A stretch of 64,000 bases of DNA from Bacteroidetes bacterium GWF2_29_10 (GCA_001768555.1 MEOD01000079.1:1-64000); one strand, 5' to 3'. Counted from the first letter of the stretch, positions 26,815-42,591 are shown. A program made the numbers and translations. Notes: generated by a model from the letters alone, not told the origin.

Positions 26815-29800
26815 ATGATTAACAACTTATCAATAAAGCTAAAACTTATAATAAGTTTTATAATAATGGCAATTTTAGCTGCTATAATTGGTTATATGGC
26901 CATTAATAGAATTAACATCATAAACAATGCTGATGCAGAATTATATGAGGTTGTTACCTCACCTCTTGGTAACTTAGTTTTTTTAGAAAGTAGTTTGCAG
27001 AAAGCAAGAATAGCAACGCGAGATATGATAATTGAAAATGAACCTAAAGAAATTGAGGAACATATATCTCAAGTGGAAGGTTATTTAAATAAAATGGATG
27101 AAGAAGCTGCTATATATAAAAAAAGCATACGAACAGAAGAAGGAAGAGCAATATTTAAAGCTTACCAAGACGCTAAATTAATCTATCAAAATGATTTAAA
27201 ACAATTATGCAAATTAGCATTATTAAATGACGATGTCGTTACTAATAATGAAATGGAGCATGGAGGTATTGCTAAAACAGTTATTGATGTTGACAAAGCT
27301 GTCAAGATGTTAGTTGATTTTAAGATAAATGAAGGAAGTATCATTAAGGCTGACAATTCATTAATTACAAATAATGCTATAAATTATATGATAATATTAA
27401 TTGTAATCTGTGTAATTTTAGCTATAACTTTAGGATTATTAATTGCTGCTAATATTTCTAAAATAGTCAAAACAATTATTAGTGAAGTAAATTCATTAGT
27501 TAATGCTGCCACAAAAGGTCAATTAGACAAAAGAGGAGCTCCAGAAAAAATTAATTTTGAGTTTAGAGAAATTGTTGTTGGCTTTAACAAAACCCTTGAT
27601 GCCGTTATTCATCCCCTAAATGTAGCAGCTGAATATATTGATAGAATAGGAAAAGGAGACGTGCCTGCAAAAATTACAGACAACTATAACGGTGATTTTA
27701 ATGAAATAAAAAATAGTTTGAATTCCTGCATTGATTCTATAAATCTATTAATAAGTGATATTAACGAAATCTCAGATGATATATCTATTGGTAAAATTAA
27801 CTCAAGAACTGATGTGAAAAATCACAATGGAGATTATGCAAAAATAATGCAAGGTGTTAATACTACTCTGGACACACTTGTATGGTTTATGGACAACATG
27901 CCAACACCTGCTATGATTATAGATAATGAATTTAATATTCATTTTATGAACAAAGCTGGAGCAGGTTTAGATAATAAAACAGGAAAAGAACTTACAGGAA
28001 AAAAATGTTATGATCATTTCAAAACAGGCGATTGCAAAACAGATAAATGTGCCTGTTATCGTTCAATTCAAAGCGGGTCAAGTGCAAGCAGTGAAACTTT
28101 AGCAAAACCAGGAAGTCACAGTTTAGATATTGCTTATAATGCAATCCCAATAAAAAATAAGGATGGGGTTGTTGTTGGAGCCTTTGAGGTTGTAATGGAT
28201 CAGACAGAAGTAAAAACTGCAATGCGTCGAGCTGAAAAAGTCAATAAATATCAAGGAAATGAAGTTAACAAACTAATAGATGGGCTAACAAAAATGTCTG
28301 AAGGTAATTTTGATTTTTCTATAGAAGTTGCCAATCCTGATGAAGAAACTCAAAAAGCATATGAAAACTTTGATGCAATTAACAATTCTGTTAAACAATC
28401 AATAAAAGCTATTTCTAATTTTGTAAATGACATGAACTATATGTCAAAAGAACATGATTTGGGCGATATTGATGTAGCAATAGATATAAATAAATTTAGA
28501 GGAGCTTATCAAAATATGGCAGATGGAGTAAATAAAATGGTTGCTGGTCATATCTCTGTTATAAAAAAAGCTATGGCTTGCGTTGCTGAATTTGGCAAAG
28601 GTAACTTTAATGCAGAACTAGAAAAATTTCCAGGAAAAAAAGCATTTATAAATGAAACTATAGAAGAAGTAAGACGCAACCTTTTAATATTTAACGTAGA
28701 ATTAGGAAATCTTATTGATGCAGCTAAAGCTGGAGAATTATCAAAAAAAGCAAATGCGGATGCATTTGTTGGAGACTGGAAAAAATTAACAAATGGAGTT
28801 AATGAAATAATCGAAAACATAATAAATCCATTAAATATTGCATCTGTCATGTTAGAGAAAATGTCAAAAGGCGATTTGACTGAAAAAATAACATCTGATT
28901 TTAAGGGCGATTTTAATAAAATAAAAGAAAGTTTAAACTCATTAAATGATGCATTATCAAGAATAATTGGAGAAATTAAAAGTGGTGCAGAAAGTGTCGC
29001 TTCTGCTAGTCAGGAAATGAGTTCTACAGCTCAAGAAATGTCACAAGGAGCATCAGAACAAGCTTCGTCTGCAGAAGAAGTGTCTTCTAGCATGGAACAA
29101 ATGGCTGCTAATATACAACAGAACACTGATAATGCACAACAAACAGAAAAAATAGCTCTTAAAGCAACTGCAGACATTGTTGAAGGAAGCAAATCAGTTG
29201 AAATTACGGTTAGTTCTATGAAAGAAATAGCTGATAAAATCTCTATTATTGGAGAAATAGCAAGAAAAACAGACCTGTTAGCAATAAATGCAGCCGTTGA
29301 AGCGGCTAGAGCTGGGGAACATGGTAAAGGATTTGCTGTGGTTGCTGCCGAAGTAAGAAAACTCGCAGAAAGAAGTCAAATTGCTGCTGATGAAATAAAT
29401 GAAGTGTCGAAAAATAGCGTAAATATTGCAGAACGTTCTGGAAAACTATTAGCTGAAATAGTTCCAGATATACAAAAAACAGCCAAACTTGTTCAAGAAA
29501 TTTCTGCAGCAAGTATAGAGCAAAATTCAGGAGCTAATCAAGTAAATTCTGCAATAACTCAATTAAATCAAGTAACACAACAAAATGCAGCTTCTTCTGA
29601 AGAAATGGCAACAAGTTCTGAAGAATTATCAAGCCAAGCTCAACAATTATTAGATACTGTTTCGTTCTTTAAAATAAATGATATTTTCTCAACTAACCAG
29701 AAAGTTAAAAAAGATATAAATATTACACATCAAAAGAAAGCGACTGTTTATAAATCAGAAAGAAATATACCAAAACAAAATGGTGTAAAAATAAATATGG

Positions 29801-29841
29801 GAAATATGCCAAGTATAGATGATGAGTATGAAAAGTTTTAG
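26815..29841 (+). CDS. Methyl-accepting chemotaxis protein with multiple HAMP-like units and a Cys-rich PAS
   Basis: N-terminal TM and 4HB-like sensor, repeated HAMP-like segments, PAS with [23 protein letters not shown] hairpin [37 protein letters not shown]. Confidence 0.95.
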
Positions 29842-29870
29842 TTTTTAGTGATTATAGTTAAGTATGACGA

Positions 29871-29908
29871 CCTGACAGAAAATAAATAGAAATCTGTCAG
29901 GTTTTTTT
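29871..29908 (+). terminator. Rho-independent terminator after the MCP gene
   Basis: CCTGACAG...CTGTCAGG stem followed by TTTTTTT. Confidence 0.8.
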
Positions 29909-29932
29909 AGAAATGATAAATTTTAAATAATA

Positions 29933-31858
29933 ATGTTAGAAAATAAAACGAAAATATTAATAATAGAAGATGATCTAAACATCCTTGAAACAACTGCAGA
30001 GTATCTCTCATTAGAAAATTACAATGTTATTAAAGCAACAGATGGAGATGAAGGTATAAAAATGGCTATAAAACATTTTCCTGATCTTATTCTTTGTGAT
30101 ATTAATATGCCTAAAGTTAATGGATACGACGTTTTTCTAACTTTGCAAAACAATTACTTTACTAGCCTTATTCCTTTCATCTTCCTAACAGCAAAATCAG
30201 AAAAAGAAGATATTTTTAAAGGAATGCAACTTGGAGCAAATGACTATATTGTTAAGCCATTTAATTATGATATTTTGCTTAACACCATAAAAATACGTTT
30301 GCAAAAATATGGCAATTTAATAAATACAAATGAAGAAAAGTTTTCAGCTATTATAAAAAATTCTGCTGATTGGATCTGGATTTCTGATATGTATGGAAAC
30401 ATTACTTTTTCTAATGATGTATGCGAAGAAATTACTGGCTTTAATAAAAATAACATTCTTGGGAATACTATATTAGACTATATCCCTATATATGAATTTG
30501 CAGATATTAGTAGTAATCATAATACTAAATTCAATAAAGAAAAACTTAAAAATAATTTTGAACATGTAGTTAAAAGAGCTGATGGAACAAATGTAAATGT
30601 CGACGTTAGCACATCAATTATTCTTAATAATGAGAATAAAGTGGCAGGAATTGTGGGTACTCATAGAAATATAACAGCGAAAAAACAAATAGAGACTCTT
30701 GAAAAAAATATAGAAATAGCAAAAACAGCGTCTCTCTTAAAACAACAATTTCTTGCAAATATGAGCCATGAAATGCGCACACCTTTAAATTGTATTATTG
30801 GCATGCTTGATTTTATGTTAAAAACCGAACTTAATGATAAACAGTTAAATTATGCAGAAACTATAAAAAGTTTCTCAGAAACTCTTTTAAAGATTATTAA
30901 TGATATTCTTGATCTTTCAAAAATAGAATCAGGAAAATTTGATCTAGAAAATGTTAATTTTAAGGTTGAAGATATCTTTGAAAACTCAAAATCGGTATTT
31001 AATTCTTTAGTAAAAGGGAAAAATATAGAATTTGTTGAGGTCACTGATGAAGCTATTCCTGAGCATATATTTGCAGATAAAATGCGCATAAATCAAATAA
31101 TCACAAACTACATATCAAATGCAATAAAATTTACCGAAACAGGAACAATTACTATAAAATATACATTATTAAACAAATTAACTACTGACAATAAACTAGA
31201 AATAAAAGTTGAAGTAATAGATACCGGGAAAGGGATTAGTAACGAAAATATAGAAAAACTTTTTAATACTTATTCTCAATTAAATAATTCAAGAATAAAA
31301 AATGTTGAAGGAACTGGATTAGGATTATCTATCTGTAAAAAATTAGCTGAACTTATGAATGGCGAAGTTGGCGTTTATAGTGAAATTAATAAAGGTAGTA
31401 ATTTTTGGTTTACTTTTGAAGCAGAAAAAGTAGCTAAGTTTGAAGAAGTAATATCTAAAATTGACAATAATGATTTTGAAGGAATTAAATTAAATCTTAA
31501 TATCCTATTAGTAGAAGATAAATATATTAATCAAGCAATGACAAAACTTCTTCTTAAAGATGCTAATTGCCAAATTGATATTGCTGAAAATGGCCAAATA
31601 GCATTAGAAATGTACAAGCAAGATAAATATGATATTATTCTTATGGATATTCAAATGCCTATAATGGATGGTATTACAACAACTTCTATTTTAAGACAAA
31701 GATATAAAAAACTACCTCCAATTATTGCCGTAACAGCAGATGTAATTGATTTAGGTTCTAAAGAACTTACTAATAAAGGGTTTGATGATTTATTACCCAA
31801 ACCAATTACAATTGAGTCTATTTATACTAAATTACTAAAGTGGAAAGAATTTTTATAA
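29933..31858 (+). CDS. Hybrid sensor histidine kinase REC-PAS-HisKA-HATPase-REC
   Basis: IIEDDLN...CDINMP REC; PAS; MSHEMRTPLNCIIGML H-box; GTGLGLSICKKLAELMNG G-box; LLVEDKYINQ...LMDIQMPIMDG REC. Confidence 0.95.
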   Translation: MLENKTKILIIEDDLNILETTAEYLSLENYNVIKATDGDEGIKMAIKHFPDLILCDINMPKVNGYDVFLTLQNNYFTSLIPFIFLTAKSEKEDIFKGMQLGANDYIVKPFNYDILLNTIKIRLQKYGNLINTNEEKFSAIIKNSADWIWISDMYGNITFSNDVCEEITGFNKNNILGNTILDYIPIYEFADISSNHNTKFNKEKLKNNFEHVVKRADGTNVNVDVSTSIILNNENKVAGIVGTHRNITAKKQIETLEKNIEIAKTASLLKQQFLANMSHEMRTPLNCIIGMLDFMLKTELNDKQLNYAETIKSFSETLLKIINDILDLSKIESGKFDLENVNFKVEDIFENSKSVFNSLVKGKNIEFVEVTDEAIPEHIFADKMRINQIITNYISNAIKFTETGTITIKYTLLNKLTTDNKLEIKVEVIDTGKGISNENIEKLFNTYSQLNNSRIKNVEGTGLGLSICKKLAELMNGEVGVYSEINKGSNFWFTFEAEKVAKFEEVISKIDNNDFEGIKLNLNILLVEDKYINQAMTKLLLKDANCQIDIAENGQIALEMYKQDKYDIILMDIQMPIMDGITTTSILRQRYKKLPPIIAVTADVIDLGSKELTNKGFDDLLPKPITIESIYTKLLKWKEFL

Positions 31859-31870
31859 ATTTGCATTTTA

Positions 31871-32485
31871 TTATTTAATACTTTTTAATCCTTCGTTTGC
31901 AGATGCATCATCAGGTTGAATAATTAACACTTTGTTAAACAACACGGCAGCTTCTTTTGTTTTCCCTAACTTAAAAGATGTCCAAGCAAGCATTAGCGTC
32001 GCATCATAGTCAAAAGGATAAAGATTTGCAACTTTTTCAAAATGTTTTAATGCATTTTGATAATCTTTATTACCATAATAAATATTTCCTAATCTATAAT
32101 TAGCGGTAGTATTATTAGGGTCAATCTTTAAAATATCATTATATTGTTTTTTTACAATTTCCCAATTACCAAGTGCTGATGCTGGCAATACTAATCCTAA
32201 TTTTGCTTCTATTGAATATGCTTTAAGCATTATTGATTTATTATAATAAGACGAAGATTCTGTAAAAAGTCCTGACATATAATAAAGCCAACCTAGTCTA
32301 AGGTTAATTTCATAAGATTTTTCATCATAATTTTTTTTGATTGCTTCTATAGCATTATTATATTCGCCTTTTTTCTCAAAAGCATAGCTGTTTTTAAAAG
32401 AGTTTGACAAGTTTTGAGCAAAAACATTGCTTGTTAATGCAATAGCAACGAAAAAAATAATTAGTCTTCTTAGTTTAGTTTCCAT
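31871..32485 (-). CDS. Secreted tetratricopeptide-repeat protein
   Basis: Signal peptide LRRLIIFFVAIALTSNVFAQ; TPRs (NNTTANYRLGNIYYGNKDYQNALKHFEKVANLYP etc.). Confidence 0.8.
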   Translation of the reverse strand: METKLRRLIIFFVAIALTSNVFAQNLSNSFKNSYAFEKKGEYNNAIEAIKKNYDEKSYEINLRLGWLYYMSGLFTESSSYYNKSIMLKAYSIEAKLGLVLPASALGNWEIVKKQYNDILKIDPNNTTANYRLGNIYYGNKDYQNALKHFEKVANLYPFDYDATLMLAWTSFKLGKTKEAAVLFNKVLIIQPDDASANEGLKSIK

Positions 32486-33813
32486 TTTATACCTCCAAAT
32501 ATTAAGTAATCATTAAATAAAATATTGTTCTTTATTGTAAAATTTATGTTTTCAGGAACATTATTGTACATGAAAACATCTTTGTTAATTTGTTGAATCG
32601 TTAAAGATAGTTCAATTTTTCGAGAAGGATAGTAATATAATCCAAAATTTATTATTTGCTTTATTTCTTCATTTATATTGTTTATATTATAATAAAGATT
32701 TCCATTGTTTAAATTAAAAAAGCTATGATTTCCTTTTGATATATTTGCCTCACAATATAATTTTGTAAATAATTTTGTAACAATACCTATTTTATAAAGT
32801 CCTTTTGTTTCAAATTGGTTATTTAAAACCTGATATGTCCCAAAAATATTAGTATTTAAATTATTAAAAGGATATACATTTAAACTAAAACCTATCTGAT
32901 TATTTCTAAAAGAACTTGATTTGGCAAAAGAATAATTTATTTCTGGTTTGAATATGTTAATCTGTTTGTATATTTTAAACGCAAATAAATAATCATTGAA
33001 AGAACTTGATTGCGTTCTAAATGTATTTAAATCTAAAAAACTACTCTCCTTATTTGTTCTAAAAAAATGAAAAGAAGGTTCAATAACAATTTTTTTTAAA
33101 TTAAATGAACTTATAATTTGATAATCAATTATTTTAGTTTTTAAATTATCTATTATTGTATCAAATCCCCCTAAATGATAGTATTTGTTATTTTGTATCT
33201 GCATGTATGATAAAGAATGACTAATAATCATTTTTTTTATCCTATGACTAAATGTAGGATTAATAAAAGTTTTATTTGTAGAGTATTCCGATTCTAAGTA
33301 TGGAATGGCCTTATTAGAAGAAATAATATAGTTGTTGATTTTTGACATAGGCGAATTATTATCAATACCAATATATAATCCCGCTTCATTGTAATTATAG
33401 TTATTATTAAATTTAAGTGATTCGGTATTTCTACTTGTGTTTATCATGCTGTAATGCAGATATGATTTGTTTAAAGCTTCGTCTTTGTTGAATTTATACG
33501 CTTTAATAAAATTATTGCTTGCAGTAAAATACTTTTCTGTATTATAAAATGCTATGCCTCTTCTCATCCTTAGATAAAACCAATCATGTCCATTTTTTAT
33601 AGATTCCTTTGTAACTATTTTTAGAGAATCATATTTTCCTTCGGTTAATAGCCGTAAGCTAACGTTATCGTAGTATTTAAAGTCTTTTAAATACGTCGTA
33701 TATTCAGTGTTTAATGATAACTTTAATGTATTCAACGGCTCAAATATATCTTGAGGGAAAATTTTAATGGTAATAAAAAATAATATAAAGAAAAAAGCTG
33801 TTAATATTTTCAT
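32470..33813 (-). CDS. TPR plus outer-membrane beta-barrel protein (YaiO-like layout)
   Basis: Signal peptide, helical repeat N-terminus (GHDWFYLRMRRGIAFYNTEKYFTASNNFIKAYKF), beta-strand-rich C-terminus; overlaps the next gene by 16 bp. Confidence 0.6.
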   Translation of the reverse strand: MKILTAFFFILFFITIKIFPQDIFEPLNTLKLSLNTEYTTYLKDFKYYDNVSLRLLTEGKYDSLKIVTKESIKNGHDWFYLRMRRGIAFYNTEKYFTASNNFIKAYKFNKDEALNKSYLHYSMINTSRNTESLKFNNNYNYNEAGLYIGIDNNSPMSKINNYIISSNKAIPYLESEYSTNKTFINPTFSHRIKKMIISHSLSYMQIQNNKYYHLGGFDTIIDNLKTKIIDYQIISSFNLKKIVIEPSFHFFRTNKESSFLDLNTFRTQSSSFNDYLFAFKIYKQINIFKPEINYSFAKSSSFRNNQIGFSLNVYPFNNLNTNIFGTYQVLNNQFETKGLYKIGIVTKLFTKLYCEANISKGNHSFFNLNNGNLYYNINNINEEIKQIINFGLYYYPSRKIELSLTIQQINKDVFMYNNVPENINFTIKNNILFNDYLIFGGIKWKLN

Positions 33814-33814
33814 T

Positions 33815-35989
33815 TTATTTGTTGTCTATAATAAAGGAATAAAGAGTTTTATTCAAAATGTATGAATAATTTATTTTGTTATCTATAATCCCAATTTTGA
33901 AATTTATTTTCTTTAATGTGTTCCCTAATATTTTTACCGTAATTGATGACTCCATATTAATTTTCGAATTATTAAGATATTTCTCGCATTGATTGTATTT
34001 ACATTGATATTTACTTTTAGTGAAAATATAGAAAGGGGCAAAAATATCTTGGAGCATTAGCATTATTTTATTATTAAATAATGTTAATGGCAAACTATCA
34101 TCATATTCAATGTCTTGATAAAATGATTTTAATATTTTATAATTAGCAAGGAAAAAATAAAACAAATGTGATTTTTTATTTCCATAAAAAGAAGTGAACA
34201 TGAAAATGTTATCTGTATTTATGAAATAGGCAGAAGAGTTTGTTTCTCTGCAATAAATGTATGTGTTGTTATATGCATCAGTTAATATTTCCCACTCAAG
34301 GTTAACTTTATTTGTTGATAATACTATCAATTTTTGTCCAGGAGTAAAGTTGTAAGCTTTAATCATGGAACTGTCAGAAACAATATTCATTACCGTTTCA
34401 TTCTCTTTTGGTATATCAAATAATTTTAGTGTATATTTATTATCTGTTTTGACTATGTAATTTGCAATAGGGTAATAAATAGTTTCTGAACCTATGTGTG
34501 GATATTTTTGTAATTGAAAATGTAAATGTGGATATGGAGAACGACCTGAATTGCCAACATAACCAATAATATTGCCTTTTTTTACAATGTCGCCTACTTT
34601 TACCTTTATTTTATCTGTTCTTAAATGATTTAATGATGCATATAGACTTTCCGAATATTTAATAATAACTGCATTTCCCCAATTTTCCTCAATATTAACA
34701 TCGCCTATATTATTATCTTTAACACTATCTATAATCTCAATAACAAGACCATCTATGGGAGCTAGTACTGGTTTGTTATAACAATAATAATCATCAAGAA
34801 CAAGCCCCTCTCCTTTAAATTGATTATCTGTATTATCTACAATGTTAAAGTCTAAAGCGTATTGCCAATCTCCTTTATGTGTATGATTGCCATTATTGCC
34901 TTGCGATATTTTCCACTCCCCAAAAAATGGGAAATCTATTGGTGCATAAAAAAAGTTATTAAAACGTTTACTATTATTCACATAATTATACAAATTTTGT
35001 TCTGGAGAATAAAGCTGAATATGTGGTATTTTTATAAATTTATTCGAATGACCAGATCTTAATACAAATAAAAATAATAATACCGCCATATTAAATGGCA
35101 TTGAATAAATTGGTAATCCAAAGATTGACAATAAAGAGCTAAATCCAGAGAGTATTATGGATGTTATTGGAATAAAAAGAATTATAGTGAAAAAGGAACT
35201 TATATTTGGTATAGTAAAAAAGGAGCCTATCGCTATTGATGTAAGGATAAAATTAAAGCCTATATATAGATAATTTAAATGTGTAATATCTGCTCCTATA
35301 AACTTATAATAATTATAGGTGAAGAAAAAACCTACAATTGACAATAGAAAAGCTATTCTGGAATGAATTAACAAACCTATTGCTATTATCACTCCTGCAA
35401 TAATATTATATTGAAAAAGAATTGCCCCTAGTGATTTGAAATAGGTAATAATAGGAATTGGTATTGCTAAATTGTTTATTTGTTCATATAGTGATACTGC
35501 CTGAATGCCTCCTATTCCATATAAATCATTTAATACGTAAATTCCCCTATCACTAATTTCTAAACTCTTAAATTCATGTCCCGATAAAACAACAAGCCAT
35601 ATGCTTATCATAAAGGGAAAACTTAAATAAGGAAGTAAATATTTCTCTAAAATATTTTCAATAGTAATAGTGAAAAACAAAGTTAGTATAGACGCAAAAA
35701 TCAGAAAAAATACAAACTGAACATTAAAATTATACGAAACTCCTAAAGCCAAACCTATAAATACATTATTAAAACTATAATAACCATTTTGTATATTTGA
35801 CCTGTTAAATCCTAAAAGCAAAGACAAAGATACTGACGTAAATATGGCTATAACTCCAGCCAAACCTGAATAAACATCAAAAAATGAAACTATCAACAAT
35901 AATAACCCAAATATTTTATTCTTAGAAAAAAATATTTGGGAATAACTATTTAAAAAACTATTTAAAATGAAAGATAGTTGATGTCTCAT
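33815..35989 (-). CDS. Urea-transporter-like membrane domain fused to an M23 (LytM) peptidase domain
   Basis: N-terminal ~310 aa polytopic with LLGFNRSNIQNGYYSFNNVFIGLALGVSYNFN (UT family-like); C-terminal HTHKGDWQYALDFNIVD, GNAVIIKYSESLYASLNHLRTDKIKVKVGDIVKKGNIIGYVGNSGRSPYPHLHFQLQ (M23). Confidence 0.8.
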   Translation of the reverse strand: MRHQLSFILNSFLNSYSQIFFSKNKIFGLLLLIVSFFDVYSGLAGVIAIFTSVSLSLLLGFNRSNIQNGYYSFNNVFIGLALGVSYNFNVQFVFFLIFASILTLFFTITIENILEKYLLPYLSFPFMISIWLVVLSGHEFKSLEISDRGIYVLNDLYGIGGIQAVSLYEQINNLAIPIPIITYFKSLGAILFQYNIIAGVIIAIGLLIHSRIAFLLSIVGFFFTYNYYKFIGADITHLNYLYIGFNFILTSIAIGSFFTIPNISSFFTIILFIPITSIILSGFSSLLSIFGLPIYSMPFNMAVLLFLFVLRSGHSNKFIKIPHIQLYSPEQNLYNYVNNSKRFNNFFYAPIDFPFFGEWKISQGNNGNHTHKGDWQYALDFNIVDNTDNQFKGEGLVLDDYYCYNKPVLAPIDGLVIEIIDSVKDNNIGDVNIEENWGNAVIIKYSESLYASLNHLRTDKIKVKVGDIVKKGNIIGYVGNSGRSPYPHLHFQLQKYPHIGSETIYYPIANYIVKTDNKYTLKLFDIPKENETVMNIVSDSSMIKAYNFTPGQKLIVLSTNKVNLEWEILTDAYNNTYIYCRETNSSAYFINTDNIFMFTSFYGNKKSHLFYFFLANYKILKSFYQDIEYDDSLPLTLFNNKIMLMLQDIFAPFYIFTKSKYQCKYNQCEKYLNNSKINMESSITVKILGNTLKKINFKIGIIDNKINYSYILNKTLYSFIIDNK

Positions 35990-35998
35990 TTCTTTGTA

Positions 35999-37357
35999 TT
36001 ACAACTCAAATTTGTTTAAATGTTCTGGTGTTTGTTCTGAACGTTCAAATGTTTCTGATGTTTCCCGCTTTCTTACTATATGAACATTGTTTTGTAAATC
36101 AATCATAACTATATTTGGACGTAAATTAATAAATTGCATCCATTGAGTCATATTATAGGCACCTATATTGCTAATAACTAAATTATCTCCTTTGTTTAAT
36201 AATGGTAAATTAATACTTTCCCTTATTACATCTATATTCATACATAAAGGACCATACAAAACGGTGTCTTCTGTAAAATGTGAAAATGGTTGTGCTGGGG
36301 TAATTTTATGATCATACCAAAAGGATGTAAACAAAATATTGACGCCAACATCAATTATTGTTGCTCGCTTCCCACTCGTAAGTCTCTTATTTGCTATTAC
36401 CGAACCTATCAAAAAGGATGTGTCGTCTATTAACGCTCGGCCTGATTCTAATATTAATGTTGGAAGATTTTCTGGTTTTATATTCGAATTTATTAATGTA
36501 GAAGTTATTGCATCTGCATAATCATTAATTGTAGGATTTGTATCAACCCCTTGCAAAAAGGAACCTTTTAATGTGTTCTTCGATGTAAAACCTCCTCCTA
36601 AATCAATATATGATATAGTATGACCATATTTTGACTGAAGATTAAGGCTAAGGTCTATAAGTTTTGATGTTGCTACAGAATAAGCCATAGGGGATAAAAT
36701 AAATGTGCCTATATGACAATGTAAACCCATTAGTTCTAAATAATCATTTAGCATAATCTTATTTAAAGCATCCCAAGCCTGACCATTCTCATAATTAAAT
36801 CCAAACCTATCCCACATAGGATAAATACCACAATCCAAATTAATTCTAATAGCCACTTTAGCCTTCTTGTTGCAACCTTTTGCAATTGACATTAAACTAT
36901 ATAATTCATCAAGATGGTCTATATGAATTAATGAATCATTATTTATAGCTTTAAGTAACTCTTCATCTGTTTTATGTGGCCCATTAAATATAATATATTT
37001 TCCAGGAACTCCATTTTTTAATGCCTTATCATATTCAAATCCAGAAACAACTTCTGCCCAAGAACCTTCTTGATGAAAAACTTTACACACACTATCCAAA
37101 TAATTTGTTTTATATGACCAGGCAAATTGAACTTTTGGATAACGATCCGTAAAAGCTCGCTTTGCTTCATTTATGTTTTTCCTAATTAACCTCTCTGAAA
37201 TAACAAAAAGAGGAGAACCATATTCTTTAACAAGATCTTTTACTTTATTATTTTCTATTTCAGTCATTGGTAAATATTCTGTTCTTAAACCAAATTTATT
37301 TGGCATGCCTGTCTCTACTTTTTTTATTACAGGTCTCTCATAACTTAATTTTGTCAT
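35999..37357 (-). CDS. PLP-dependent decarboxylase (diaminopimelate/ornithine decarboxylase fold type III) with N-terminal extension
   Basis: FAWSYKTNYLDSVCKVFHQEGSWAEVVSGFEYDKAL PLP-Lys region; GLHCHIGT; YIDLGGGF; LILESGRALIDD; YGPLCMNIDVI; preceded by MTKLSYERPVIKKVETGMPNKFG. Confidence 0.87.
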   Translation of the reverse strand: MTKLSYERPVIKKVETGMPNKFGLRTEYLPMTEIENNKVKDLVKEYGSPLFVISERLIRKNINEAKRAFTDRYPKVQFAWSYKTNYLDSVCKVFHQEGSWAEVVSGFEYDKALKNGVPGKYIIFNGPHKTDEELLKAINNDSLIHIDHLDELYSLMSIAKGCNKKAKVAIRINLDCGIYPMWDRFGFNYENGQAWDALNKIMLNDYLELMGLHCHIGTFILSPMAYSVATSKLIDLSLNLQSKYGHTISYIDLGGGFTSKNTLKGSFLQGVDTNPTINDYADAITSTLINSNIKPENLPTLILESGRALIDDTSFLIGSVIANKRLTSGKRATIIDVGVNILFTSFWYDHKITPAQPFSHFTEDTVLYGPLCMNIDVIRESINLPLLNKGDNLVISNIGAYNMTQWMQFINLRPNIVMIDLQNNVHIVRKRETSETFERSEQTPEHLNKFEL

Positions 37358-37378
37358 AATATATCTATTAAAATAATT

Positions 37379-38431
37379 TTATAATTCGCCTAATGTTGAA
37401 ATTTGTTCCAGTTCCTCAATATCTACAATCATATCATAAGAATATCTTACAAACATCTTCCCCGTTTTATAGTGTAATGATGGTGATACCTTTTCTCCAA
37501 TGCACAACTTTAATAGCATTTCCGGAATATTGTTCCCAACTCCAAAGCTTAAATATATCCAAGCTGGGATGCGAGGATTGATTTCCAATAAATAGTAATC
37601 ATTAGTATCTTTCTTTTTTATAATTTCCAATTCAAAAGCACCTCGCCATTTAGTTTTATTTATAAAGTTTTGCGTTATATTTTTTAGATTATCATCTTCT
37701 ATAGAAACACCTGCCCATGCTTTACCTTTATCCGTAATATATTGTTTTCGCATAGATACATAAGAAATAAGTTCCCCATTGCCATCTCCAAGTCCTGTTA
37801 CGTTTAACTCTTGACCATCTATAAATTCTTGAATTATTATTGGTAAGCCCCATTTATTTGCTATTTTATTAAAGTGTTGTTGTGCTTGTTCTATATTGGA
37901 AGCTATGCTTGCATCATAGTATTTACCTTTAACTGCTATAGGAAAATTAATATTTGATGGAAGTTTATAAAATTCATTAGGAGAATTTATTGTATGTGAA
38001 GCAGGAACCTTTATTCCATATTTATCTCCAAAACTATTTAAATTAACTTTATGCCTTTCCTCAAACTGTTCTATAGTTGGTAAAAAAGTTTTTATGCCTA
38101 TTTCTTCTAATCTATCCTTTAGTTTTATAAAAGAATATAATTCTGCATCAAAATTTGGAATGATAACATCTATTTTTTCTATACTATTTACATGCTTAAT
38201 CCTTTCAAAAAGAACTTCCATGCCTGCTGAGGGATAAGGAATTTGATATGTTTTGTCTATTAAATCATGCATGAAAATACCTGGCTCTAGCGACTCATAA
38301 GCAAGACCTATAATTTTTGAATTAAAAATTTCAGATTCTTTTATACATCGTATTACGGGAATACCTGGACCTGGATTATCTATAGCGTTTAGACCCGTAA
38401 CAGCTACTGTGATTGACTTCCTTTTATTCAT
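37379..38431 (-). CDS. ATP-grasp carboxylate-amine ligase-like protein
   Basis: ATP-grasp layout: FPIAVKGKYYDASIASN, PIIIQEFIDGQELNVTGLGD, WRGAFELEIIKKKDTNDYYLLEINPRIPAWIYLS. Confidence 0.85.
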   Translation of the reverse strand: MNKRKSITVAVTGLNAIDNPGPGIPVIRCIKESEIFNSKIIGLAYESLEPGIFMHDLIDKTYQIPYPSAGMEVLFERIKHVNSIEKIDVIIPNFDAELYSFIKLKDRLEEIGIKTFLPTIEQFEERHKVNLNSFGDKYGIKVPASHTINSPNEFYKLPSNINFPIAVKGKYYDASIASNIEQAQQHFNKIANKWGLPIIIQEFIDGQELNVTGLGDGNGELISYVSMRKQYITDKGKAWAGVSIEDDNLKNITQNFINKTKWRGAFELEIIKKKDTNDYYLLEINPRIPAWIYLSFGVGNNIPEMLLKLCIGEKVSPSLHYKTGKMFVRYSYDMIVDIEELEQISTLGEL

Positions 38432-38434
38432 AGC

Positions 38435-38683
38435 TTATTTATCTAGTTCTATTACTAAATAGGCCTTAAGTAAAGATACAAAATCATAGTAATCTTTTTC
38501 AAAAGCTGTAGATTCTACTTCATATTTGTCCATTATATGATCTTTTATTGATTCGTAAGCCATTTCGGCTTTTAGCATATTGATTATCTCTACTCCCATT
38601 TGGTTTGTTGTAAATGACTCGCCCGAAACTGGATTAAATATAAATCCCGTATTACTTATTGCTATACTATTTTTTATTTTCAT
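38435..38683 (-). CDS. PqqD-family small protein (RRE-like fold)
   Basis: 82 aa: NSIAISNTGFIFNPVSGESFTTNQMGVEIINMLKAEMAYESIKDHIMDKYEVESTAFEKDYYDFVSLLKAYLVIE, matching the PqqD winged-helix layout. Confidence 0.7.
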   Translation of the reverse strand: MKIKNSIAISNTGFIFNPVSGESFTTNQMGVEIINMLKAEMAYESIKDHIMDKYEVESTAFEKDYYDFVSLLKAYLVIELDK

Positions 38684-39086: not shown

Positions 39087-41513
39087 ATGTCAATTAATGA
39101 TTTAATAAAATACCAAATGATATCTGACAATATAAATGATGATTCGGATTTAATACCATTGATTTCTTTAGATGAAGATGATATGTTCAAAGTAGAAGAT
39201 GTCCCTGACATTTTGTCGTTGTTACCTTTAAGAAATACTGTATTGTTTCCGGGAGTTGTTATTCCAATTACAGTAACACGCGAAAAGTCAATAAAACTAG
39301 TAAAGGATGCGTATAAAGGGAATAAAATAATAGGCGTTGTTACTCAACGAAACAGTCAAATAGAAGAACCAAAACCAACTGATTTATTTAATGTTGGCAC
39401 AATTGCATATATCGTGAAAATATTGCAAATGCCTGATAGTACAACAACCGTTATTATTCAAGGAAAAAAGAAGTTTGCTATAAAAGATATCGTTGCTTCA
39501 AAACCATATTTTAAGTCAACATATACTATCTATAAGCAAAACAAACAAAAAAAGGATACAAAGAATTTTAGCGCTTTAATTTCTTCAATAAAGGATATTG
39601 CTCTAAAAGTAGTTAAGAACTCTCCTAATATACCTCCTGAAACAGCTTTCGCTATAAAGAATATAGAAAATAGCAACTTCTTGATTAATTTTATCTCTTC
39701 AAATATTAATATTGATATTTTGGAGAAACAAAATATGCTAGAAATTCAAGATGTGGAGGAGAGAGCCTTAAAAGTGTTAGAGTATTTATCTAAAGAGTTA
39801 CAGGTTATTGAACTGAAAAATGAAATACAATCAAAAGTAAAGATTGATTTAGATAAGCAACAAAGAGATTATATACTTCACCAACAGTTAAAAACAATAC
39901 AAGAAGAGTTGGGTGGATTGTCTTACGAACAAGAAATAAATGAGCTGAAAGATAGAGCAAAAGATAAAAAATGGAGTGAAAAGATTAAAGAATTATTCAA
40001 TAAAGAGTTTGCTAAATTACAAAGGATGAATCCTTCGGCAGCTGAATATTCTGTTCAAATGAATTATATTGAAACTTTGTTAGATTTGCCATGGAATGAA
40101 TATACTAAAGATAATTATAATCTAAAAAATGCAAAAGCTATATTGGATCAAGATCATTTTGGACTGGAAAAGGTTAAAGAAAGAATACTAGAATATCTTG
40201 CTGTTTTAAAATTAAAAGGAGATTTGAAATCACCAATCTTATGCCTTGTTGGACCTCCTGGAGTGGGGAAGACCTCTTTAGGTAAATCAATAGCGAGGGC
40301 TTTAGGTAGAGGTTATGTTCGAATGTCATTAGGAGGTGTGCATGATGAAGCAGAAATAAGAGGGCATAGGAAAACATATATTGGTGCAATGCCTGGTAGA
40401 ATAATGCAAAATATAAAGAAATCAAAGTCTTCAAATCCTGTATTTGTTCTTGATGAAGTGGATAAATTAGGCTCTAGTTCTGTGCATGGCGATCCATCAT
40501 CAGCCTTATTAGAGGTTTTAGATCCAGAACAAAACTATTCTTTTAATGATAATTATTTAGATGTAGAATATGATTTGTCTCGAGTTATGTTTGTCGCTAC
40601 GGCAAATAATCCCGGACTTATCCAAAGTGCATTACTTGATAGGATGGAGCTGATAGATATAAGTGGATACATAATTGAAGAGAAGGTAGAAATAGCAAAG
40701 CGCCATTTAATACCAAAGCAAATATCTGAACATGGATTAGAGAAAACACAAATATTTTTCAATAAGAATATATTGGAAAAGATGATACAATCATACACCC
40801 GAGAATCAGGTGTTCGAAATTTAGAAAGATTGATTGCAAAAATTATAAGAAATACGGCTAAGTTTATTGCTTCAAATGAGAAGTATAATCCGAAAATCTC
40901 ACTAGAAGATGTTGAAAGAATATTAGGACCAGAGCGATTCTTAAATGAACAATCAGAAAAAAATAATGCAGTTGGTGTTGTTACGGGATTAGCTTGGACT
41001 TCATTTGGAGGTGATATCTTGTTTATAGAAGCAAGCCAAAGTAAGGGTAAGGGAATACTTACAGTTACGGGTAATTTGGGCGACATAATGAAAGAGTCGG
41101 CTACGCTGGCTTATCAATATATAAAGTCGAATGCAGAAACATTAGGAATTGATTTGAACTCTTTAGAAAATACTAACATACATATTCATGTTCCTGAAGG
41201 AGCTACGCCAAAAGATGGTCCTTCTGCAGGAGTAACAATGTTTACATCTATTGTGTCAGTTTTGACACAAAAAGCAGTTAAGTCTAATTTTGCAATGACT
41301 GGAGAAATTACCTTGCGAGGGAAGGTTCTTCCTGTTGGAGGAATAAAAGAGAAAATATTAGCAGCTAAGCGATCAAATATTACTGACATTATTTTGCCAG
41401 CAGACAATCTTAAAGATGTTGCTGAAATTAGTGAAGTTTATATAGCAGGGTTGAAGTTTCATTATATAAAAAATATGATGGAAATTACAAAGTTAATATT
41501 TGCAAAGAAATAA
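39087..41513 (+). CDS. lon: ATP-dependent protease Lon
   Basis: LPLRNTVLFPGVVIPI, GPPGVGKTSLGKSIARALGR, VFVLDEVDKLG, HVPEGATPKDGPSAGVTMFTS Ser-Lys dyad domain. Confidence 0.97.
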   Translation: MSINDLIKYQMISDNINDDSDLIPLISLDEDDMFKVEDVPDILSLLPLRNTVLFPGVVIPITVTREKSIKLVKDAYKGNKIIGVVTQRNSQIEEPKPTDLFNVGTIAYIVKILQMPDSTTTVIIQGKKKFAIKDIVASKPYFKSTYTIYKQNKQKKDTKNFSALISSIKDIALKVVKNSPNIPPETAFAIKNIENSNFLINFISSNINIDILEKQNMLEIQDVEERALKVLEYLSKELQVIELKNEIQSKVKIDLDKQQRDYILHQQLKTIQEELGGLSYEQEINELKDRAKDKKWSEKIKELFNKEFAKLQRMNPSAAEYSVQMNYIETLLDLPWNEYTKDNYNLKNAKAILDQDHFGLEKVKERILEYLAVLKLKGDLKSPILCLVGPPGVGKTSLGKSIARALGRGYVRMSLGGVHDEAEIRGHRKTYIGAMPGRIMQNIKKSKSSNPVFVLDEVDKLGSSSVHGDPSSALLEVLDPEQNYSFNDNYLDVEYDLSRVMFVATANNPGLIQSALLDRMELIDISGYIIEEKVEIAKRHLIPKQISEHGLEKTQIFFNKNILEKMIQSYTRESGVRNLERLIAKIIRNTAKFIASNEKYNPKISLEDVERILGPERFLNEQSEKNNAVGVVTGLAWTSFGGDILFIEASQSKGKGILTVTGNLGDIMKESATLAYQYIKSNAETLGIDLNSLENTNIHIHVPEGATPKDGPSAGVTMFTSIVSVLTQKAVKSNFAMTGEITLRGKVLPVGGIKEKILAAKRSNITDIILPADNLKDVAEISEVYIAGLKFHYIKNMMEITKLIFAKK

Positions 41514-41574: not shown

Positions 41575-42591
41575 ATGACAAAGGCATATTGGGAAAGTAA
41601 AATATTTGCTATAAAAGAAGACGATTTTCTTAGTTTCGCTTTAGAAGCGTTTGCTTTTCAAAAGAATAATAACCCTGTTTATAATAGATATTTAAAAGAA
41701 ACAAAGCAGTTTGAGAAAAATATTTCAGAATATTATCAATTCCCAACACTTCCAATATCATTCTTTAAAACTCATGATGTTGTAACGCCTAAACCAAATA
41801 CAGAGTCTTCTTCAACGCATGTATTTTTAAGCAGTGGCACAACCGATTCCTTTAACAGAAGCAAGCATATAGTATTAGATTTGAGTATTTATGAGAAAAA
41901 TATTTATAATATATTCAATAAATTTTACGGTCCAGTAAATCAATATTTTTTCATAGGACTTTTGCCTAATTACTTGGAAAATAAATCATCATCATTAATA
42001 CACATGGTTGATAAGCTAATTAAGCAAGGTAGGGGTGGTGCTTTTATTAATGAACTAGATGAAGTCATAATAAAAGTTAACCAGTTAACAGAAGCACATT
42101 GTAAGGTAGTTTTATTCGGTGTAGCTTATAGCTTATTAGACTTGGCAGAATACATGCAAAAAAATAATGTTAAATTTAATAACACTGAAAATATAATAAT
42201 TGTCGAAACTGGAGGCATGAAGGGGCGACGCAAAGAAATTACAAAAGAAGAACTTCATCTTATTTTACAAAAACAATTAAATATTGATAAATTACATTCT
42301 GAATATGGCATGACCGAATTATTATCTCAGGCATATTCATCAGAATGCAATAAATATTTATGTCCTCCACAAATGAAAGTGTTTATTACAGAGCTTAACG
42401 ACCCTTTTGCTATAATAAAAGAACCAAACAAAAAAGGAGTTATTAATATTATAGATTTAGCAAATATATATTCTTGTTCATTTATAAAGACTGAAGATAT
42501 TGGACAGATAAACAGTGATGGCACTTTCTCTGTAAATGGGCGTTTAGATTATTCTGACTTGCGAGGTTGCAACCTCTTAATGGATAGCTGA
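41575..42591 (+). CDS. LuxE/PaaK-like acyl-protein synthetase
   Basis: HVFLSSGTTDSFNRSKHIVLD adenylation P-loop-like motif; VETGGMKGRRKEIT; SEYGMTELLSQAYS; FIKTEDIGQINSDGTFSVNGRLDYSDLRGCNLL. Confidence 0.82.
   Translation: MTKAYWESKIFAIKEDDFLSFALEAFAFQKNNNPVYNRYLKETKQFEKNISEYYQFPTLPISFFKTHDVVTPKPNTESSSTHVFLSSGTTDSFNRSKHIVLDLSIYEKNIYNIFNKFYGPVNQYFFIGLLPNYLENKSSSLIHMVDKLIKQGRGGAFINELDEVIIKVNQLTEAHCKVVLFGVAYSLLDLAEYMQKNNVKFNNTENIIIVETGGMKGRRKEITKEELHLILQKQLNIDKLHSEYGMTELLSQAYSSECNKYLCPPQMKVFITELNDPFAIIKEPNKKGVINIIDLANIYSCSFIKTEDIGQINSDGTFSVNGRLDYSDLRGCNLLMDS

Follow-up and report, generated by a model that had tools for sequence, protein, structure and literature searches.

A conserved six-gene operon of Bacteroidota combining a PqqD-like protein, an ATP-grasp ligase, and a PLP decarboxylase with a urea-transporter-fold M23 fusion

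Layout of the operon

We analyzed a 64,000-nucleotide stretch of DNA from Bacteroidetes bacterium GWF2_29_10 (MEOD01000079.1:1-64000), hereafter called the window. Six open reading frames, all starting with ATG, lie on the minus strand between positions 31871 and 38683 (Table 1). In transcription order, they are spaced by gaps of 3, 21, 9, and 1 bp, followed by a 16-bp overlap. These coordinates agree exactly with those in an initial annotation of the window, and its claim of a single co-transcribed unit is supported. The operon is far beyond what chance would produce because the same genes recur in the same order in about 40 further loci. No Rfam family exceeded its gathering score between 29000 and 42000, and a scan for promoters and terminators gave no signal above that of shuffled sequences.

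Table 1. Genes of the operon in transcription order
Product	Coordinates	Strand	Features
PqqD-like protein	38435..38683	-	82 aa, first gene of the operon; PF05402 28.9 bits (cut-off 23.4)
ATP-grasp ligase, CPSase-like/PylC-like type	37379..38431	-	350 aa; PF15632 and PF02655 above cut-off
Alanine-racemase-fold PLP decarboxylase	35999..37357	-	452 aa; PF02784 and PF00278
UT-M23 fusion	33815..35989	-	724 aa; PF03253 185 bits, PF01551 56 bits
Outer-membrane barrel protein	32470..33813	-	447 aa; signal sequence, TPR-like helices, ~14 strands
Secreted TPR protein	31871..32485	-	204 aa, final gene of the operon; TPR_2 and other TPR models above cut-off

The Pfam scores of the ATP-grasp ligase (ATPgrasp_Ter, 41) and the decarboxylase (Orn_Arg_deC_N, 103 bits) exceeded the curated cut-offs. 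The fusion protein consists of a urea-transporter (UT) channel at residues ~1-312, a basic linker, an M23 peptidase domain at ~350-500, and a beta-rich C-terminal domain at ~550-711. The barrel gene had no match in Pfam or NCBIfam; its AF2 model (pLDDT 79) shows an N-terminal TPR-like helical part followed by the barrel strands, and Foldseek returned only generic barrels for it, PelBC among them. The window barrel was not matched by the PgaA/BcsC/PelB-type families of TPR-barrel exporters, and its relatives gave only weak VexE-like TPR matches. The TPR protein starts with a signal sequence, as judged by eye.

A plus-strand gene pair (26815-31858) converges on the operon's 3′ end and, by eye, encodes a 1008-aa chemoreceptor-like protein and then a 641-aa receiver/PAS/histidine-kinase protein. 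On the other side lies a Lon-like protease gene (39087-41513), and downstream of it a plus-strand gene (41575-42591) for a 338-aa protein resembling, again by eye, a LuxE-type acyl-protein synthetase.

Conservation and co-inheritance in Bacteroidota

To follow the operon across its phylum, to which our deep genome searches were confined, we searched 396 Bacteroidota genomes with the UT-M23 protein. The fusion was found in 34 of them (~9%), representing 27 genera, with identities of 31-45% in the genomes beyond that of the window. A profile search with the ATP-grasp ligase in the same 396 genomes gave matches at E<1e-140 in exactly these 34 genomes and no further matches down to 1e-40. The chance of such an overlap would be ~10^-49 if the genomes were independent, which they are not, although 27 genera are covered. 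The divergences of the ATP-grasp and UT-M23 proteins are also correlated (r=0.905), which is explained in part by shared species history. One genome carries a shortened fusion of 532 aa (G255). In another (G005), the UT and M23 parts are split at L056:11011-11020; this split was considered as a clue to the location of the M23 domain and rejected, as the break falls within a run of seven Ts and is probably a single-base indel, i.e., a sequencing error or a recent frameshift.

A contig scan beyond the phylum sample added eight relatives, seven from Bacteroidetes and one named Ignavibacteriae. We then read 42 loci: 33 neighborhoods, the window, and these eight named contigs, which include Bacteroidales, Salinivirgaceae, Paludibacter, Ancylomarina euxinus, and one Ignavibacteriae MAG. 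The PqqD-like, ATP-grasp, decarboxylase, and UT-M23 genes occur on one strand and in this fixed order in all 39 loci with enough upstream sequence, including one (L058) in which the PqqD-like match is weaker and lies ~2.3 kb further upstream. The TPR gene is present in 36 of the 39 loci with enough downstream sequence, being missing there in L055, L056, and L058, and nearly all loci have a barrel gene, which belongs to one of three families (f5, f6, or f18); the f5 barrel holds the same position in other loci as in the window. In the loci read, no conserved neighboring gene encodes a precursor or an enzyme of amino-acid synthesis. In a plasmid collection, we found neither the fusion nor the system, only plain UTs, plain M23 proteins, and distant ATP-grasps. 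The initial annotation had made its proposal depend on the co-location of homologues in other genomes and had called for conserved co-occurrence, and both were borne out, by the ordered neighborhoods and by the identical genome sets of the ATP-grasp and UT-M23 proteins. The six genes almost certainly constitute a real, dedicated system, passed on as a whole within the Bacteroidota phylum.

The loci outside the window's class with a gene order unlike that of Bacteroidia, which we call the Ignavibacteria-like branch, have their barrel gene (f6) after the TPR gene. In most of them, the gene directly upstream of PqqD (family f7; L051-L054, L057, L060-L063, L065, and L067-L069) encodes a secreted protein in which an FG-GAP-like part is combined with a T9SS type A sorting domain (TIGR04183, 37.6 bits; cut-off 23), and a larger relative of it (f17) lies upstream in L058, L064, and L066. 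The f7 protein is likely to be an extra component of the system in this branch, and the f7 and f17 proteins are possibly its cargo or surface partner. A link of the system to the T9SS through SprA (34/34 versus 304/396 overall) was set aside because many of the listed absences fall in one family (f19).

Residue changes in the decarboxylase, the channel, and the M23 domain

Among solved structures, the decarboxylase is closest to the N-citrylornithine decarboxylase FigC (7kh2), which is also its best PDB match. The score of the operon enzyme against LysA (TIGR01048) was 223.6 bits, under the curated cut-off of 297.9, and that against FigC/FslC (NF041039) was 252 bits, under the cut-off of 500. 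We aligned 40 family members with FigC, whose specificity residues were taken from the literature (PMC7857480), and counted the residues in each column. The PLP lysine K83, the stacking histidine H213, and the catalytic cysteine C372 are invariant, as are W347, M373, I375, and Q405. The acid that binds the side-chain amine in ODC, ADC, and DAPDC is replaced by M373 in 40/40 members, the equivalent in FigC being M355, and the region of the DAPDC arginine reads T344, W347, and Y348. The family thus has neither the arginine on the specificity helix nor the acid beside the catalytic cysteine that characterize LysA. With N-citrylornithine decarboxylase it shares the methionine beside the cysteine in every member, but H357 and R387, both proposed to contact the citryl group in FigC, are replaced in 40/40 by I375 and Q405, respectively.

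Judging from these residues, neither basic amino acids in free form nor DAP nor citryl conjugates should be the preferred substrates of the enzyme; a conjugate whose tail carries less charge would fit best. Decarboxylation of a conjugate fits a FigC-like pocket that has lost both the amine-binding acid and the citrate contacts. The earlier label of the protein as DAP-decarboxylase-like is probably misleading in this respect, as the enzyme, by its pocket residues, is not specific for DAP or for free ornithine, lysine, or arginine. Enzymes of the same branch other than DAPDC and D-ODC have been argued to serve specialized metabolites more likely (PMC7857480). A separate LysA above the curated cut-off is encoded in 15 of the 17 genomes checked, the exceptions being G125 and the window's own genome. 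In the latter, the top LysA match is the operon decarboxylase itself; this assembly is 92% complete, and a gap is possible.

The UT part of the fusion has a genuine UT fold, as indicated by its PF03253 score and by an AF2 model (pLDDT 90) with a TM-score of 0.83-0.89 to dvUT. Through an alignment with dvUT, we mapped the published urea filter residues (E187 or Gln at the So site, T130 and T294 at the Sm site; PMC4357013) onto 40 UT-M23 sequences. The E187 position is occupied by A, L, S, F, M, I, or Y, never by Glu or Gln, in 40/40 sequences; Val or Ala replaces T294 in 22/40, and T130 is Ser in 37/40. The hydrophobic filter residues and most of the Si residues are retained. Among the 34 genomes with the operon, urease alpha is convincing in one, with weak matches (E ~1e-4 to 1e-5) in five others. 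Because E187 is lost throughout and urease is convincing in so few genomes, the UT part is unlikely, from its sequence, to function as a urea channel. The original urea-transporter label stands for the fold and is probably misleading for the function. The constriction of UT channels is narrow, ~2-3 Å (PMC10541013).

These data bear on one alternative, namely, that ordinary genes of urea, lysine, or polyamine metabolism happen to be adjacent. The automatic names "urea transporter" and "diaminopimelate decarboxylase" would suit it, as would the lack of a separate LysA above cut-off in the window's genome. However, it is contradicted by the co-occurrence in 34/34 genomes and the conserved order, by the rarity of urease and the presence of a separate LysA in most genomes checked, and by the lack of the residues that would recognize urea, DAP, or basic amino acids, and we regard it as extremely improbable.

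In the M23 domain, the zinc ligands and catalytic histidines (H371, D380, H455, H488, and H490) are invariant in 40/40 sequences. The termini of mammalian UTs are cytosolic, and this homology would place the M23 domain in the cytosol. A PE-N motif after the last UT-M23 helix aligns with the tail of UT-B, which also counts for a cytosolic M23 domain. The same M23 subfamily is found in haloarchaeal and Thermus plasmid proteins (L099:1192-2118, L100:1138-2097, and L101:1018-2094). In these relatives, the M23 domain is preceded not by a plain signal peptide but by membrane helices at the N-terminus and a basic linker, which favors the cytosol as well; since archaea lacking peptidoglycan carry the subfamily, it may have a substrate other than peptidoglycan. 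In contrast, 11 of 12 stand-alone M23 relatives from Bacteroidota show, by eye, signal peptides or lipoboxes, favoring the periplasm. The count of K+R per side of the UT part was 6.8 opposite the termini and 3.65 on the side of the termini, but the positive-inside rule was dropped as a guide to the M23 side because UT-B, with its cytosolic termini, shows the same bias by hand count. The periplasmic signature reported by the initial annotation thus finds a parallel in the exported relatives, whereas a simple periplasmic placement runs against the UT homology.

Were the M23 domain periplasmic, the operon could serve envelope modification, with an amine conjugate being attached to peptidoglycan or a surface protein and the peptidase acting on cell-wall peptides. 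The invariant catalytic residues, the exported stand-alone relatives in the phylum, and the T9SS-sorted surface protein adjoining the operon in the Ignavibacteria-like branch are all consistent with such a role. Nevertheless, we consider it unlikely, given that UT homology sets the C-terminus in the cytosol, that the M23 relatives extend to haloarchaea, which have no peptidoglycan, and that the operon has no known peptidoglycan-ligase partner.

The PqqD-like family is invariant at G13, F14, F16, G21, and N27, and its alignment of 30-33 members contains neither a carrier-type serine motif nor an invariant serine. Its domain score lies above the cut-off for the RRE/PqqD domain of RiPP pathways; any peptide binding is putative. 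Conserved catalytic residues of the ATP-grasp ligase (37 members) include K128, K168, E267, E269, E283, and N285; the protein gave PRK12767-type NCBIfam matches below cut-off, was unmatched by graspetide models, and scores as CPSase-like. In 33 loci, the 700 bp preceding PqqD contained no conserved small ORF, and none lies inside the tightly packed operon, in agreement with the earlier remark that no separate precursor peptide is present. The view that the first three genes are suited to making an amino-acid-derived product is likewise supported.

A RiPP pathway would use the same proteins differently: the PqqD-like protein would recognize a precursor encoded elsewhere, the ATP-grasp ligase and the decarboxylase would modify it, and a cytosolic M23 domain would remove the leader. 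The above-cut-off PqqD domain speaks for this scheme, a peptidase on a membrane component suits leader removal, and a cytosolic M23 domain is compatible with UT homology. Still, the missing small ORF both upstream and within the operon, the CPSase-like character of an ATP-grasp ligase unmatched by graspetide models, and a UT pore through which even a short peptide would not fit make it distinctly unlikely.

A proposed pathway and its relation to known systems

Of the mechanisms considered, we tentatively regard as the best one in which the first three proteins would ligate and then decarboxylate, and the channel, barrel, and TPR proteins would export the small product, with the outward direction being assumed. 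The ATP-grasp ligase would couple the side-chain end of an amino acid to a second small molecule or a peptide, and the PqqD-like protein may present this ligation partner to the enzyme. The conjugate, and not the free amino acid, would then lose its alpha-carboxylate to the PLP decarboxylase, which would expose an amine end. The UT-fold channel, having lost its tuning for urea, would pass the product or a fragment of it over the inner membrane, and the M23 domain attached to the channel would trim or release the product on its own side of that membrane, be it cytosolic or periplasmic. The barrel and TPR proteins would bring the product across the outer membrane or present it on that membrane. 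Co-inheritance, fixed order, intact catalytic residues, changed pockets, and the UT fold all speak for this scheme, and the signals carried by the TPR and barrel proteins speak for the export route. Counting against it, a large conjugate would not fit the UT pore, and the loci show no conserved neighbor that would supply a precursor or an amino acid. A more specific version, in which the peptidase would sit at the cytosolic mouth of a repurposed urea-channel fold and couple product release to exit, making the operon a new class of specialized-metabolite system, is speculative and, in our estimate, rather unlikely.

Transport may also be inward. UT channels are passive and bidirectional, and the barrel, TPR, and channel proteins are all compatible with import, so the operon might take up an amine conjugate, cut it with the M23 domain, and rework it in the cytosol with the decarboxylase and the ATP-grasp ligase. 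However, the ligase consumes ATP and has kept its catalytic residues, and the decarboxylase has relatives among specialized-metabolite enzymes; both point to synthesis, and we find uptake and breakdown improbable.

The ligation and decarboxylation steps proposed above have precedents. BtrI, BtrJ, and BtrK of butirosin biosynthesis likewise comprise a small partner, an ATP-grasp of the carbamoyl-phosphate-synthase group, and an AR-fold PLP decarboxylase (PMC7857480, PMC4431377). However, the butirosin partner is an acyl carrier protein with a phosphopantetheine serine, whereas here it is an 82-aa PqqD-type protein without an invariant serine, and BtrK is a weaker match to the operon decarboxylase than FigC or LysA. 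In the FigA/FigC pathway of the NIS siderophore rhizoferrin and in SbnH/AcsE relatives, ligation also comes first and the conjugate is decarboxylated afterward, and FigC has the same methionine beside the catalytic cysteine. There, however, the ligase is an NIS synthetase instead of an ATP-grasp, and H357 and R387 of FigC are Ile and Gln here in 40/40. The operon therefore belongs to neither the Btr nor the Fig system, as it has no carrier serine, no NIS synthetase, and none of the contacts proposed for citrate.

With the dvUT/SLC14 urea transporters, the UT part has in common the fold, the hydrophobic filter, and most of the Si residues; it differs from them in having no E187, in its fusion to M23 and C-terminal domains, and in the lack of a convincing urease in 33 of the 34 genomes. 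In PCAT-type ABC exporters, a cytosolic C39 peptidase is fused to a membrane export component. The likeness to them would hold only if the M23 domain is cytosolic, and here there is no ATPase, the membrane part has a passive channel fold, and the peptidase is M23 instead of C39. PqqD-containing RiPP pathways and graspetides resemble the operon in placing a PqqD-type protein beside a modifying enzyme and in their ATP-grasp chemistry, but no precursor was found here. Our search of the gene neighborhoods in a graspetide survey (PMC8939145) found no mention of a decarboxylase or M23. Our literature search of open-access papers found no description of this gene combination, in line with the initial annotation, which recognized no described pathway containing it.

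Each part of the operon comes from a known superfamily and its logic has precedents; it is the combination that is undescribed. The system has been hidden behind the names "urea transporter" and "diaminopimelate decarboxylase." As its parts are clustered and co-inherited, the whole system could be transferred to a laboratory host for direct testing. If the proposed reading is true, the operon adds a small-molecule pathway equipped to cross the two membranes by itself, and it shows that the UT channel fold has been put to another use and joined to a peptidase.
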